This document shows, piece after piece, positions 51,580 through 56,715 of a DNA stretch of 64,000 bases. The notes under the pieces were generated by a model that saw only the letters and a list, made by a program, of their open reading frames with translations, had not been told where the DNA came from and did not search any database. The translations under genes were made by a program, and so were the position numbers. The DNA lies in NCBI RefSeq assembly GCF_000744825.1, contig NZ_JQMR01000001.1, positions 1,907,501 to 1,971,500 of the forward strand. The letters run 5' to 3'. Numbering within the stretch: position 1 is the stretch's first letter; each line of letters opens with the position of its first letter. This DNA is from Carnobacterium mobile DSM 4848. Its GTDB lineage: Bacteria > Bacillota > Bacilli > Lactobacillales > Carnobacteriaceae.

Positions 51580-51621
51580 TTGATGCGTATCAATTTTTAT
51601 TTGGTGTAATCCAACTATACT
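51580..51621 (+). promoter_or_regulatory. FNR/Crp-type activated promoter of the HMA-Ric operon
   Basis: TTGATGCGTATCAA (51580-51593) is a perfect TTGAT-N4-ATCAA FNR box. TATACT lies 22 bp on (51616-51621) with no good -35, so the box centre would be near -41.5, the class II activation position. Confidence 0.75.
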
Positions 51622-51687
51622 ACAGGTGTAAAGAGAAAGAGGCGAAGAAAAAGCCTCTACTACAAATAAAAAATAAAGGGGAAATGA

Positions 51688-51924
51688 ATGATGTCAAAAG
51701 CAGTCCTTACATTAGAAGCCTTATCTTGTCCAAGTTGTTTGCAAAAAATTGAAAGTGCAGTAAAAGGATTGAATGGAATCGACAAAGACAGCGTAAAAGT
51801 TTTATTCAATTCCAGCAAAGTCAAAGCTGATTTTGATGCAGATACTCTTTCGATTGAAGAAATTGAAAAAGCAATCATTGACTTGGGATACCCAGTTCTT
51901 AAAACCAAAGTGAAAGCAGCTTAA
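51688..51924 (+). CDS. Heavy-metal-associated (HMA) domain protein
   Basis: This 78-residue ferredoxin-like HMA protein has ALSCPSCLQKIESAV, where the CPSC pair would bind a soft metal such as copper or zinc. It probably hands metal to, or takes it from, the P-type ATPase two genes on. ATG at 51691 is an equally possible start; both follow AAGGGGA. It is transcribed from an FNR-type promoter. The metal is not known. Confidence 0.86.
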   Translation: MMSKAVLTLEALSCPSCLQKIESAVKGLNGIDKDSVKVLFNSSKVKADFDADTLSIEEIEKAIIDLGYPVLKTKVKAA

Positions 51925-51955
51925 ACGCCTATAAATCAGAAAGAAGGAATGGATA

Positions 51956-52258
51956 ATGACAGGACTCAACGAAGCAGCGAACAAGTATTTTGAAAAATTA
52001 GATATGTTTACAACAGCGATTACACGGGCGCATGGTAAAAATCACCCTGAAGCATTTGAAGTACGAGAATTGTTCAGTGAAATAAATGAGAAAATGCAAA
52101 CAGCAGGTTCAGTTAGACCCAATTTAGATGTGGAATTTGCTCGATTGCGTGAAATTACAAATAACTACACCATTCCTGGTGATGTTTGCGGAACTTATGC
52201 TGCAGTATACGACATGCTTTCTGAAACAGACCAAGCTTACCAAGCTTACCAAGCTTGA
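51956..52258 (+). CDS. Ric-like (Fe-S repair associated) helical protein
   Basis: This 100-residue helical protein has AITRAHGKNHPEAFEVRELF and NNYTIPGDVCGTYAAVYDML, which resemble the short proteins named iron-sulfur cluster repair di-iron protein Ric in streptococci and enterococci. The name is by resemblance; only some of the His/Glu ligands of full-length RIC proteins could be present. The C-terminus ends AYQAYQA from a 9-nt repeat. AAAGAAGGAA precedes the ATG. Co-transcribed with the HMA gene. Confidence 0.65.
   Translation: MTGLNEAANKYFEKLDMFTTAITRAHGKNHPEAFEVRELFSEINEKMQTAGSVRPNLDVEFARLREITNNYTIPGDVCGTYAAVYDMLSETDQAYQAYQA
52229..52258 (+). repeat. 9-nt tandem repeat at the end of the Ric-like gene
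   Basis: CAAGCTTAC repeats two and two-thirds times (about 52230-52255), giving QAYQAYQA just before the stop. It is likely slippage-prone. Confidence 0.75.
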
Positions 52259-52261
52259 TGC

Positions 52262-52320
52262 ATCGCTAAGAAAGAAGTCTCAGAAAGAACTAATTATTCT
52301 TTCTGGGACTTCTTTCTTTT
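52262..52320 (+). terminator. Terminator after the Ric-like gene
   Basis: AAGAAGTCTCAGAAAG pairs with CTTTCTGGGACTTCTT across AACTAATTATT, followed by a T-rich run. It separates the HMA-Ric pair from the ATPase gene, which has its own promoter. Confidence 0.8.
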
Positions 52321-52349
52321 TTTAATAAGTGAATAGAAAGTCTCCAAAC

Positions 52350-52391
52350 TTGATGGCCGTCAATTTATATATTTTGAAACGGTCCTATACT
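52350..52391 (+). promoter_or_regulatory. FNR/Crp-type activated promoter of the P-type ATPase
   Basis: TTGATGGCCGTCAA (52350-52363) is an FNR box with one mismatch, and TATACT (52386-52391) again follows after exactly 22 bp, the same geometry as the promoter at 51580. Confidence 0.75.
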
Positions 52392-52428: not shown

Positions 52429-54339
52429 ATGCAGCACTATATATTAAGCAAGAAAAACCAAATAACGTTGATCAGCGGTGTGTTGATCGGGCTAGGTTTC
52501 TTTAGTCATTTCATTTTAGAAAATGTGGGGATTTCTGAATGGTCTTTGATCATCGCTTCTATTTTCGGAGTTGCACCAATTGCTGTCCAAGCGTATCAAG
52601 CCATAAAAGTAAAAGTTGTCAGCATTGATTTGCTGGTCACTATCGCCGTCATCGGAGCTTTCTTAATTCAAAATTATGAAGAAGCAGCTATTGTTACCTT
52701 CTTATTTTTATTTGGGCATTTCTTGGAACAACGGACCTTAAACCAAACCCGTTCTGCTATCAAAGAGTTAACTGAAATGGCACCAGAAAGTGCTTTAAGA
52801 CAAATGGAAGATGGAGGATTCGAAGAAGTAGACGTGGAAGACGTGGACGAAGGAGAGGTCTTACTCGTCAAAACCGGTGCAAAAGTCCCGGTAGATGGAA
52901 CCGTCATCACAGGTGAAGGCTACATCAATGAAGCCAGCATCACAGGTGAATCCGTTCCAGCAAATAAAACAGTTGGTTCAGAAGTCTTTGCAGGCACTAT
53001 TTTAGAAAATGGAACGATCCAAATTCGTGCTGATCGAGTAGGAGAAGACACGACATTTGGAAAAATCATTGAATTGGTTGAAGAAGCACAAGATTCTAAA
53101 TCCGAAGCAGAACGGTTCATTGACCGCTTTGCCAAATATTACACACCAATTGTCTTGGTACTGGCATTTGGTGTGTGGCTATTCAGCCAAAACATCGAAT
53201 TAGCGATTACCATTTTAGTATTAGGCTGTCCGGGCGCATTGGTTATCGGAGTCCCAGTTTCGAATGTTGCCGGTATTGGAAATGGTGCTCGTAATGGGGT
53301 TCTGCTAAAAGGAAGCGAAGTGATTCATGACTTCAGTCGAGTAGATACAATCGTATTTGATAAAACAGGAACATTGACTGTCGGGAATCCAACTGTTGCA
53401 GAAACTGAGTTCTATAGAGAAAATAACACTGAAGTCCTTGGTTATTTAGCAAGTGTGGAACGTGAATCTGACCACCCGCTTGCAAAAGCTGTCCTCCAAG
53501 AAATTGGCGAGACATCTTTTTCTACAGTAGAAGGAACAGAAGTCGTCAAAGGGGGCGGTATTGTAGCAAGCGTGAATGGGCACCGGATAGCTATTGGGAA
53601 TGTTGCATTGATGGAAACAGAACATGTGGTATTCAGTAAAAAAGCGCAAAAAGACGTGGAATGTTTTGAAGAAAATGGCAACTCGCTGGTGCTGACAGCG
53701 GTCGATGGCGAATTAAAAATTCTGATGGGCATTCGTGATCAAGTCCGTCCCGGAGTAAAAGAAGACCTACAAGAGTTGAAAAAATTAGGCGTGAAAAACC
53801 TAGTTGTTCTTTCAGGCGATAATCAAGGAACGGTGGATGCTGTTGCTCGTGAGCTAGAGTTAACAGCAGCATATGGACATATGCTGCCAGAAGATAAATC
53901 GGCTCATATCGAGAAATTACAAAAAGCAGGCCAAATCGTTGCTTTTGTCGGAGACGGGGTCAACGACAGTCCTTCATTAGCTTTAGCGGATATTGGAATT
54001 GCGATGGGGAATGGAACAGACGTTGCCATTGAAACATCCGATGTTGTCTTAATGAACTCGGATTTCAGTCGTTTGCCGCATGCGTTAGGTTTGACGAAAG
54101 CCACAGCACGAAATATGAAACAAAATATTATTATCGCAGTGGGTGTAGTCTTGGTCTTATTGGCCAGCGTCTTTTTCAGTGAGTGGATGAATATGTCTAT
54201 CGGTATGCTGGTCCATGAAGGAAGTATCTTGGTTGTTATTTTCAATGGAATGAGACTATTAAATTATCGTTTAAAAGACAAAAGGGCTCGCAAGAAAATG
54301 GAGGCTAATCCAGTATCAGAAACAGTACACACAACTTAA
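52429..54339 (+). CDS. Heavy metal translocating P-type ATPase (P1B)
   Basis: This 636-residue metal-transport ATPase of the cell membrane has the actuator TGES, the phosphorylation site DKTGTLT, SDHPLAKAV in the nucleotide domain, GDGVNDSPSLALADIGIAMG, and a membrane metal motif LGCPGALVIGVP. That motif is CPG rather than CPC or SPC, and the last helix pair has HEGSILVVIFNGMRLL. There is no N-terminal HMA domain; the separate HMA protein upstream may serve. The metal is uncertain (Zn, Mn, Cu or Fe family members look alike). ATG at 52429 follows GGAGG, and FNR-type control is likely. Confidence 0.9.
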   Translation: MQHYILSKKNQITLISGVLIGLGFFSHFILENVGISEWSLIIASIFGVAPIAVQAYQAIKVKVVSIDLLVTIAVIGAFLIQNYEEAAIVTFLFLFGHFLEQRTLNQTRSAIKELTEMAPESALRQMEDGGFEEVDVEDVDEGEVLLVKTGAKVPVDGTVITGEGYINEASITGESVPANKTVGSEVFAGTILENGTIQIRADRVGEDTTFGKIIELVEEAQDSKSEAERFIDRFAKYYTPIVLVLAFGVWLFSQNIELAITILVLGCPGALVIGVPVSNVAGIGNGARNGVLLKGSEVIHDFSRVDTIVFDKTGTLTVGNPTVAETEFYRENNTEVLGYLASVERESDHPLAKAVLQEIGETSFSTVEGTEVVKGGGIVASVNGHRIAIGNVALMETEHVVFSKKAQKDVECFEENGNSLVLTAVDGELKILMGIRDQVRPGVKEDLQELKKLGVKNLVVLSGDNQGTVDAVARELELTAAYGHMLPEDKSAHIEKLQKAGQIVAFVGDGVNDSPSLALADIGIAMGNGTDVAIETSDVVLMNSDFSRLPHALGLTKATARNMKQNIIIAVGVVLVLLASVFFSEWMNMSIGMLVHEGSILVVIFNGMRLLNYRLKDKRARKKMEANPVSETVHTT

Positions 54340-54842: not shown

Positions 54843-55565
54843 ATGGAGGACTTACAATTTCATTTTCAACCTAAAGTCGATGTTCAAAACAAACGACTGA
54901 TGGGATATGAGGTCTTATTAAGGAATAATGAGCAAAATCCGTATTACCCAGCTGCAAAGATGGCTGAAGTAATCCACGATAGAAAAGAGCACTCGCTTTT
55001 CTTAAAGTGGTTCCAAGAAGAACTAATGCGTTTGGTAGATTTATGTCCAACCGTACAATTTTCAATTAATTTTGCACCAAAACAATTATTTTACCCGGAG
55101 ACACATGTCTTTTTCACTGAAATGCAGCCATATGCTAAACAACTGACTATTGAAATAACAGAAGATGCTCCATTTTTTACTGCTTCAAACGATACGATTA
55201 ATTCTTTAACAATCGACCAGCATTTTTTGTCTATTTTTGCCTCAATCAAGGAAAAAGGGTATTGCATTGCATTAGATGATGTTGGCTCAGGGAGGAATTC
55301 GTTAGAGGAAGTCTTAAAATACACTCCTTATCTAGATCAAATTAAATTTTCAATGGTAAATTGTAGTAAAAAGAAGATAAACGAAGCGACTTTACAGCTT
55401 TTCTTGCACGCTTGGAAACGTTTCTCAGAAGACTATCAGCTCGATTTCATTATAGAAGGTGTTGAAAATCAAGAAATGAGCGATGAATTGAAAGAACAAG
55501 GAATGTTTCTTCAGCAAGGATACTATTTTGGGAAACCTTCAAAATGTATAAAAACAGGTTATTGA
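54843..55565 (+). CDS. EAL domain protein (probable c-di-GMP phosphodiesterase)
   Basis: This 240-residue stand-alone EAL domain hydrolyses cyclic di-GMP if active. The signature is YEVLLR (EVL for EAL), with the metal-site Asn in INFAPKQ, Glu in IEITED, the DDxxxG loop as LDDVGSG, Lys in DQIKFS, and IEGVENQE and GYYFGKP at the end. The key acidic residues seem kept. ATGGAGG precedes the ATG. It lies 53 nt before a GGDEF gene that is broken. Confidence 0.87.
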   Translation: MEDLQFHFQPKVDVQNKRLMGYEVLLRNNEQNPYYPAAKMAEVIHDRKEHSLFLKWFQEELMRLVDLCPTVQFSINFAPKQLFYPETHVFFTEMQPYAKQLTIEITEDAPFFTASNDTINSLTIDQHFLSIFASIKEKGYCIALDDVGSGRNSLEEVLKYTPYLDQIKFSMVNCSKKKINEATLQLFLHAWKRFSEDYQLDFIIEGVENQEMSDELKEQGMFLQQGYYFGKPSKCIKTGY

Positions 55566-55618
55566 CAACTTACTAATTTTATTTGTTTCCTATGACTAGC
55601 TGATGAAAGGAGTTTATT

Positions 55619-56715
55619 ATGCTGTCATCTATTTTCTTAAGTCTTATTGCCAATATTTCTATTCTCTGTACCGTATCTTATATTTTCGTTAAATTAATCC
55701 CGAAAGAAAAACATTATACGCTTAGCTTAAAAAAGAAGCTAGAGATGATCGGCATAGCTAGTATAACAAATTTTATTTTAATGCTTTTTTCGGTTACCTT
55801 ACCTGAAGAAGCCATCCTAGATTTCCGGCAAATTATTTTGATTCTGCTGGTTTATTATTTTGGTCCTTCCGTTTCTATTCCAACTGCCTTTTTGATTTCG
55901 GCATTGCGTTTGTTATTAGGAATTAACCCTGCTTCGATTCAGACCGCATTTGTGTATGTTTTTCTAGGTCTTTTATTGCCGTATGTTAGCAGCAAGTTAA
56001 CAAAACGATTTAATAATTACGCTGTTTTGTCCTGTCTTAATGTGATTTGCGTTGCAACTATTAGTTTGAGTTTGTTCTTTTTGTATAAAAATATTTTGCT
56101 AAGCCTCCTTATTTGCTTTAGTTTACTGATTCTTTCTAGTATTGTAGTCATTGCTGTGACTGCTTTTATAGAAGATTTAATAAAAAATCTCCATTTATAT
56201 TTAGAGGAACAAGAACACGCCCAAATGGATTACTTGACGGGCTTATACAATATGAGAGCGTTTAATAAAAAATGGCAAGTGATCCAAGCGGATAAATCAA
56301 TCGCTAAGACCGCTTTTATGATAATAGATATCGACCATTTTAAATGGATCAATGACAATTATGGACATGCGAATGGAAACTTTATCTTGCGGCAGTTAGC
56401 AGTCATTTTAAATGTTGGGGCTCCGGACCACGAGTTGATTTACCGTGTAGGTGGAGAAGAATTTTGTTTGATTTTAAATCATTTGTCTTATGCAGAATAA
56501 CAAGAAGTGGCTGAAAATATCAGAGTCAGCGTGGCAGGTAAAGAATTCTTACTGGAAAATGGGCAGGCATCAACATAACCGTATCAATTGGGTTGGCTGC
56601 TTCTGGACAACAAAAAGATATGAAGAAACTGTTCCGGTTAGCCGATCGGTGCTTGTACATGGCAAAAGAGCAAGGGAGAAACCAAGTGATCGGAGCAACA
56701 TTGGAAAGTGAGTAG
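55619..56715 (+). pseudogene. GGDEF diguanylate cyclase with 5TMR-LYT-type sensor, broken
   Basis: The N-terminus has about five to six membrane helices like the 5TMR-LYT sensor (LVYYFGPSVSIPTAFLISALRLLLG), then a GGDEF domain (DYLTGLYNMRAFNKKW, IIDIDHFKWINDNYGHANGN, RVGGEEF). A TAA at 56498-56500 cuts it 11 residues after GGEEF. The rest of the domain can still be read: QEVAENIRVSVAGKEF, then after a one-base shift NITVSIGLAASGQQKDMKKL and LADRCLYMAKEQGRNQV to 56715. With both lesions the cyclase is surely inactive. Confidence 0.88.

Follow-up and report, generated by a model that had tools for sequence, protein, structure and literature searches.

FLP, a two-cysteine FNR-like protein, as probable activator of a metallochaperone and P1B-pump module in Carnobacterium mobile

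Two promoters of identical geometry in a 64,000-nucleotide stretch of the Carnobacterium mobile genome (the window) precede genes for a small HMA protein, a Ric-like protein and a P1B-type ATPase. They very probably belong to a real regulon driven by FLP, an FNR-like activator with two cysteines whose gene lies on the same chromosome at a distance of 405 kb; the boxes in both promoters would be its operators. The best explanation overall, which we regard as likely, is that FLP is a class II activator that runs a metallochaperone/P1B-pump module. The identity and geometry of the promoters, one matching candidate regulator, that regulator's own promoter and a near-perfect co-occurrence of FLP with the ATPase can be read directly from the genomes; binding of FLP to the boxes, and activation rather than repression, are predicted from them.

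In the mechanism that we propose, FLP bound at -41.5 would recruit RNA polymerase, most likely as a class II activator, and would turn on its own gene, the hma-ric′ unit and the CPG-type P1B ATPase, and probably also the qNOR nitric oxide reductase of this genome. The HMA protein and the ATPase would work together in metal handling, most likely as chaperone and exporter, with the truncated RIC-like protein as a non-catalytic partner. The signal, which may be thiol oxidation, NO or metal, would act through the two cysteines of FLP.

Twin promoters in the window

Box 1 (TTGATGCGTATCAA, 51580-51593, forward strand) and box 2 (TTGATGGCCGTCAA, 52350-52363, forward strand) are each followed after exactly 22 bp by the -10 hexamer TATACT (51616-51621 and 52386-52391, forward strand). 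With the hexamer set at -12 to -7, both boxes are centred at -41.5, and transcription would start at about 51628 and 52398, respectively. An earlier note on this DNA had described these boxes, their 22-bp spacing and their position; we found all three again in the sequence, and the downstream genes are those that it had named, for an HMA protein, a Ric-like protein with partial similarity to RIC and a P-type ATPase. Between the hma-ric′ unit and box 2 lies an intrinsic terminator with a strong hairpin (52270-52316, forward strand; z = -6.88 for the surrounding 106 nt), and because it precedes box 2 we treat hma-ric′ and the ATPase gene as two transcription units.

The box alone was rejected as evidence, since it is near chance in the window: with one mismatch allowed, there are 12 matches against 8.25 expected from shuffles. 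When box, spacing and -10 element were sought together, no site arose in 400 runs of a first-order Markov model of the window. A search of the 2.63-Mb genome for box-22 bp-TATACT promoters had been proposed in the earlier note. With the pattern TTGATN4RTCAA-N{19,25}-TATAMT it returns 3 sites, all at spacing 22, and the backward pattern returns 0; widening the gap to 10-35 adds a single site, at spacing 27. The third exact site (C1:2365013, 405 kb from the window pair, spacing 22) stands upstream of flp, a gene for a 232-aa Crp/FNR protein, its box starting 237 bp 5′ of the start codon.

A relaxed pattern, TTGAYN4RTCAA-N22-TANNNT, gave 8 rows in the whole genome and 0 in the control. Three intragenic matches and the reverse reading of a palindrome before norB were set aside, leaving 4 sites, before flp, hma-ric′, the ATPase gene and norB. 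The small regulon that the earlier note had envisaged is thus borne out, with 3 exact sites in the genome and 1 relaxed intergenic site. A search with two mismatches found 26 matches against 14 for the backward pattern, with 12 of the 26 being copies of one repeated sequence, and by itself proves little; norB was taken up from it because the relaxed search with zero mismatches had also returned the norB site.

FLP as the candidate regulator

FLP has a cNMP_binding domain (PF00027, 94.8 bits) and an HTH_Crp domain (PF13545, 72.6 bits), and this genome holds a single FLP match. As Crp/FNR candidates we took those 4 of 49 weak HTH_Crp_2 matches in the genome that exceed the curated cut-off, namely FLP, two other Crp-family proteins (L005 and L006) and one MarR protein. 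FLP is the sole protein with an E..SR recognition helix among the three Crp/FNR-family proteins examined, its E198, S201 and R202 aligning with the recognition residues of E. coli FNR; the helices of L005 and L006 are without these residues, so that of the proteins examined FLP alone is a candidate for reading TTGAT. The L005 gene adjoins an ORF that we labelled by eye as carbamate-kinase-like.

The E. coli FNR box is TTGATN4ATCAA at -41.5, and E. coli FNR class II promoters resemble the present ones in this box, in its position and in the E..SR helix of the protein that reads it. Box, geometry and recognition residues together uphold the earlier assignment to FNR-box type promoters, and the Crp/FNR gene expected with it exists, as flp. 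The cysteines differ from what had been proposed: in place of a regulator with CxxC cluster cysteines, we find two cysteines, C17 and C115, that are 98 residues apart and invariant in 21 sequences, and their equivalents are the only invariant cysteines in 55 homologues. Overall, then, the earlier note was right in its observation, which it understated, and in its kind of interpretation, and partly wrong in its details.

The two invariant cysteines share alignment columns with two E. coli FNR cysteines, Cys29 and Cys122, the cluster cysteines of that protein being 20, 23, 29 and 122; no conserved cysteine of FLP corresponds to the remaining two. A conserved pair spaced by about 97-98 residues is a mark of FLPs, the cysteines of Lactobacillus casei FLP being Cys5/Cys102. 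With only two cysteine columns in common with E. coli FNR, we rejected assignment to FNR proper, the four-cysteine [4Fe-4S] protein; the invariant pair in FNR-aligned columns therefore points to an FLP and not to an oxygen-sensing FNR. A model of the Carnobacterium jeotgali FLP homologue (mean pLDDT 86; residues 1-17 below 50) matched the CRP and FNR folds among solved structures. Some FLPs carry extra N-terminal cysteines and a His-rich tail, and His-rich N-termini are frequent.

These features bear on an FNR-type oxygen regulon, in which FLP would hold a labile iron-sulfur cluster, activate anaerobically and serve a pump needed for anaerobic physiology. The box, the -41.5 geometry and the E..SR helix are all FNR-like; FlpS-dependent arcABC expression in S. 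suis is higher anaerobically, and L. lactis FlpA is cited as binding its cluster via N-terminal non-cysteinyl residues, both according to the portions of PMC5039431 available to us; and the extra N-terminal cysteines and His-rich tail of some FLPs would also fit. Only two cysteines are invariant in the 55 FLPs, however, with the other two cluster cysteines unmatched, and at its core the regulon serves a metal pump with its partner proteins rather than anaerobic metabolism. We consider an oxygen regulon of this type unlikely. For FLP as the two-cysteine activator of a metal module, we rate a thiol-redox or NO signal about as likely as not, the alternative being oxygen sensed through a cluster. 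FLP could also be active in the absence of oxygen, in the manner of FNR or FlpS, rather than under oxidation. The redox sensing mechanism of FLPs is described as still disputed in the accessible part of PMC5039431.

PADLOC matches of FLP apparently reflect common cNMP/HTH domains only. A search for an HMA remnant between the promoter and flp in this genome yielded only stop-broken frames, with nothing recognised. Relatives have a second FLP paralogue with extra cysteines (L066:4433-5134, L062:10167-10865 and L080:335-1060), which in L062 and L066 is divergent from an acyl-CoA dehydrogenase-EtfBA operon with a TTGATTTAAATCAA box.

Promoter geometry across relatives

The arrangement of box and -10 element was followed through related genomes in several ways. 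First, in 18 genomes of the family, a search at spacings of 10-35 gave 90 matches, where the backward pattern gave 8; removal of repeats left 66 distinct matches, of which 45 have a spacing of exactly 22.

Second, of 435 FLP relatives we analysed the 80 best loci, which by record title come from Bacillaceae, Carnobacteriaceae, Enterococcaceae, Lactobacillaceae and Clostridia. From these we took the boxes that stand 35-170 bp in front of HMA, ATPase, Ric-like or flp genes, blind to the -10 element. In these best 80 of 435 loci, TA...T stands at gap 22 in 61 of 65 distinct boxes (9 of 65 at the next best gap) and in 50 of 52 after clustering of the same boxes at 80% identity; the four exceptions of 65 comprise three boxes of Ric-like genes and a single flp box, whose TATACT lies at 21. 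For the other 131 boxes of these best 80 of 435 loci, gap 22 was seen in 20 cases, several of which precede plausible further members. When TATAMT was required, the 80 best loci and two norB loci gave 18 cases at gap 22, 7 at 23, 5 at 27 and 1 at 21. Among loci L049-L071, which were selected for holding box-22 sites, 31 of 35 such sites have an HMA, Ric-like, ATPase or flp gene at most 6 kb downstream and 4 do not. Sites in L092, L093, L094 and L204 lie inside ORFs and were rejected as regulon members.

Third, the number of sites follows the presence of FLP. Genomes with a strong FLP have on average 3.67 sites, against 0.37 in genomes without FLP (backward control, 0.12 and 0.14), and among 198 sampled genomes at least two sites are present in 42 of the 51 strong-FLP genomes (E <=1e-60) versus 3 of the 111 without FLP. 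The discordant cases are G132, G138, G146 and G148, which have a strong FLP yet no exact site, and G016, G099 and G179, which have no FLP yet at least two sites.

Finally, the box is followed by a T-rich stretch in the 61 promoters, 60 of which match TTGACA at three or fewer of the six -35 positions. Promoters without a good -35 hexamer are expected to need an activator (class II), and class II activation by FLP is in our estimation highly likely.

The boxes might instead be remnants or coincidences, lying idle in constitutive sigma-A promoters. A box alone is common by chance in this AT-rich genome, and a loose sigma-70 scan does list promoter 2 (9 of 12), with fewer total hits than in shuffles. 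Against idle boxes stand the spacing, which is conserved between Bacilli and Clostridia despite divergent spacer sequences, the concentration of multiple sites in strong-FLP genomes and the poor -35 elements, which lead one to expect an activator; we hold idle boxes to be very improbable.

In one family genome (G015:C1), box-22 sites with an FLP cluster nearby stand at 802591, 875714 and 948837. The interval is exactly 73,123 bp each time, and the three copies could reflect a tandem triplication, integration of a plasmid concatemer or an artefact of assembly.

Co-occurrence of FLP and the ATPase

Among 198 sampled genomes of the order, FLP is present in 81 and the ATPase in 80, with both in 80, FLP only in 1 (G056), the ATPase only in 0 and neither in 117; these counts ignore kinship, apply limits of E up to 1e-30 for FLP, chosen after the table had been seen, and E up to 1e-130 for the ATPase, and judge ATPase presence on at most six candidates per genome. 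Plasmids have spread several of the copies. With FLP at the looser 1e-15, 87 of the 198 genomes are positive and the ATPase is absent from 7 of these. A RIC-like gene occurs in 41 of the 198, all within the set having both FLP and the ATPase. G005, from the genus of the window, keeps the promoter with a fragmented ATPase gene and with flp absent (only a Crp protein of 25% identity is found), a state that looks like joint loss of flp and ATPase. Within flanks of up to 6 kb, the best 80 of 435 FLP loci include the ATPase in 54 cases, HMA in 52 and RIC-like in 16; none of these three partner genes is found there in 21 of the 80. The near one-to-one pairing of FLP with the pump in the 198 sampled genomes, and a promoter geometry that Clostridia share with lactic acid bacteria, point to a core function that is directly testable.

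Such pairing, with the ATPase in 80 of 81 genomes that have FLP (E up to 1e-30), is as would be seen for a cognate sensor-pump pair, and FLP might accordingly be a metal-sensing activator, a metalloregulator on the CRP/FNR fold whose cysteines and His-rich N-terminus bind the exported metal. The frequency of His-rich FLP N-termini is consistent with this, as is the placing of the FlpA regulon among Lactobacillales metal homeostasis regulons in the portion of PMC3616900 available. Against a metal sensor, RIC-type, Dps, DUF6448, flavodoxin and perhaps NO reductase genes have the same promoter across genomes, and targets so varied suggest redox or nitrosative stress rather than one metal; moreover, the N-terminal tail is variable, and the model shows little order there (pLDDT below 50 for residues 1-17). 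Direct metal sensing therefore seems to us doubtful, and we continue to favour FLP as a class II activator of the metallochaperone/P1B-pump module.

The metallochaperone-like protein and its pump

The small HMA protein (78 aa, 51688-51924, forward strand) is metallochaperone-like by sequence, with an HMA domain over the cut-off (PF00403, 42.5 bits, E=8.5e-11) and a CxxC in the form of a CPSC motif. The P1B-type heavy-metal ATPase (636 aa, 52429-54339, forward strand; TIGR01525, 562 bits, over the cut-off) contains the motifs DKTGTLT and GCPGALVIG, with CPG in the metal-site helix and HEGS(I) in the last membrane region. As far as the available text of PMC8880997 describes them, PIB-4 ATPases carry SPC and HEGxT motifs, and pumps of that subclass such as sCoaT share with the window ATPase the P1B fold, an HE(G/A)S close to the C-terminal membrane region and a pump without an HMA domain. 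The window pump differs in having CPG, in missing the final T of HEGxT and in its separate adjoining HMA gene; with CPG in place of SPC and HEGS in place of HEGxT, we rejected the PIB-4 subclass for it. Among the best 80 of 435 FLP loci, 49 of the 51 long ATPase ORFs have CPG; the remaining two have CPH or CPC and, at 36-37% identity, are more distant, other ATPases. Our literature search found no mention of CPG for CPG-type P1B ATPases.

By the ATPase gene, the region 54843-56500 contains an EAL-domain gene and then a membrane ORF that stops soon after a GGEEF motif, possibly through truncation or a frameshift.

The Ric-like protein

The second gene of the hma-ric′ unit encodes a truncated RIC-like protein (100 aa, 51956-52258, forward strand) with a RIC-type helical fold and without the di-iron ligands. 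It scores 43.2 bits against TIGR03652, whose cut-off is 204.7, and has no Pfam match and no ScdA_N domain; in a genome search with TIGR03652 its gene was the sole match. The protein is similar to S. aureus ScdA in two sequence blocks. The best 12 fold matches of its model (pLDDT 85) are all RIC proteins (ScdA, YtfE), as are all structures at E below 0.1, none of which reaches E 0.001.

As di-iron ligands of RIC proteins, the part of PMC9268430 that we could consult gives H84, H129, H160, H204, E133 and E208. In the Ric-like alignment, YtfE H84 corresponds to N5, H160 to D58, H204 to Y98 and E133 to E35, with gaps for H129 and E208; E35 is not kept in two of three homologues, and YtfE His105 is kept. 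Alignment with full-length RICs shifts the N-terminal half of the Ric-like protein, so single ligand positions are uncertain; in either alignment, the C-terminal helix bearing H204/E208 is absent from the Ric-like proteins. The Ric-like protein thus shares the fold and two sequence blocks with the RIC proteins YtfE and ScdA (PMC9268430 and PMC12412097, in their accessible sections), from which it differs in being 100 aa long and in having no ScdA_N domain, C-terminal helix or di-iron ligands. On the ligands and the TIGR03652 cut-off, we rejected its membership in RIC.

A promoter of this type does precede full-length RIC-type genes in two FLP-bearing MAG contigs, L140 (Eubacteriales) and L172 (Firmicutes), where both Pfam RIC domains are over the cut-off and the NCBIfam scores are 187-188 bits against a cut-off of 204.7. 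The truncated protein may therefore derive from a regulon RIC. The description of these genes as an Fe-S stress group is weak in the present genome, where the Ric-like protein is without the di-iron ligands; what stands of it are the RIC-type genes behind the promoter in L140 and L172.

norB and further candidate members

The relaxed genome search placed TTGATTTAGATCAA-22-TATGAT before the gene for a 760-aa quinol-type (qNOR) NO reductase. norB is found in 2 of 198 genomes of the order, and the box is absent before norB in the other genome copy (G059) and in the two closest homologues on lactic acid bacterial plasmids. Because these other copies are without the box, the membership of norB depends on one site, from which we consider that it probably belongs to the regulon. 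In four Bacillus/Neobacillus FLP loci, norB lies 3.5-5.6 kb downstream of flp; one of these genes is Pfam-confirmed and the other three run off the end of the locus.

In relatives, the box-22 promoter also precedes genes for a dps-type ferritin, DUF6448 proteins and a flavodoxin, as well as acyl-CoA dehydrogenase-Etf and FMN-binding/old-yellow-enzyme genes. Linkage of dps to flp is confined to 2 of 80 loci (the best 80 of 435), so dps is not counted in the universal core.

The DUF6448 proteins behind a box-22 promoter were seen in two distant organisms (L067:4349-5047 and L164:4788-5468). On Weissella/Leuconostoc plasmids, norB adjoins acyl-CoA dehydrogenase-EtfBA (L211:1468-7295 and L212:1484-7239), and this operon type has an FNR box in other Carnobacteriaceae. 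L070:1616-4712 holds an operon for an FMN-binding/PAS protein and an old yellow enzyme behind a box-22 promoter, and L071, near 4150, an operon with similar gene lengths behind another; the two are possibly a flavin electron-transfer branch of the regulon.

In four Bacillus/Neobacillus loci (L109, L115, L117 and L120), a box and then a Fur-like palindrome lie just downstream of flp, upstream of norB and of genes that look by eye like those of the mevalonate pathway. In at least L115, L117 and L120, a -10-like TATAA stands at about spacing 23 from the box.

Relation to known FLP and FNR systems

FLP proteins were first described in the 1990s. The FLP of Lactobacillus casei and the FlpA/FlpB of Lactococcus lactis are reportedly the subject of work by Gostick (1998, 1999) and Scott (2000), and the L. 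lactis study is said to have had zinc uptake as its theme. The present system resembles these in its two-cysteine FNR-like regulator and in the connection with metal and oxidative stress, and differs in its core target, an HMA/CPG-ATPase module that we see in Carnobacteriaceae, Bacillaceae, Clostridia and on plasmids and that frequently includes a truncated RIC-like gene. E. coli FNR stands apart in its four-cysteine [4Fe-4S] set, which FLP does not have, and in its targets, which are those of anaerobic respiration rather than, as predicted for FLP, of metal handling. FlpS of S. suis has two cysteines, oxygen-dependent activity and arcABC as its main reported target, according to the available part of PMC5039431. 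Like FlpS and ArcR-type regulators, FLP is a Gram-positive FNR-like protein with two cysteines; unlike them, it has other targets, and here a separate Crp-family gene (L005) lies by the carbamate-kinase-like ORF. In the literature searched, of which coverage was partial and included few subscription papers, we recognised no link between FLP and the pump.

Plasmids and the metal

Of 72,556 plasmid records, 451 carry relatives of the window ATPase (E up to 1e-100) and 327 carry FLP (E up to 1e-60), and the cassette occurs on many Enterococcus, Listeria, Lactococcus and Leuconostoc plasmids. Because it is so widely carried, the FLP signal and the metal would be relevant to stress survival in food and host. 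Gene orders on plasmids include dps-flp-(lgt)-hma-ATPase and ATPase-hma-dps-flp, and in four plasmid stretches (Listeria, Enterococcus faecium, Carnobacterium and Ligilactobacillus) dps, flp, hma and ATPase each have their own box-22 promoter.

FetAB iron export genes lie near FLP in 3 of 7 annotated plasmid stretches. Plasmid stretches also have cadmium, copper or arsenate genes nearby, so the neighbouring genes do not point to one metal. Iron is slightly favoured by FetAB, by Dps and by the Fur-like palindrome in the four Bacillus/Neobacillus loci, and we tentatively suggest Fe(II) as the metal of the pump, an assignment that is rather less than an even bet.

A wider reading, possible and, taken jointly in all its parts, improbable in our view, is that FLP, HMA and the CPG ATPase, often with a dead RIC fragment, form an ancient, plasmid-borne module for metal disposal after oxidative or nitrosative damage. 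The metal would most likely be labile or NO-released Fe(II), the CPG pump would represent an undescribed P1B subclass, the Ric-like protein would be an adaptor evolved from RIC, and FLP would be, at its core, the cognate activator of the pump. If this were true, FLP would be no general oxygen switch.

On contig G000:C6, the same weak HTH match recurs at 1844, 6930, 12022, 17110 and 22200, approximately every 5.09 kb, and the contig may be a concatemer of a small plasmid.
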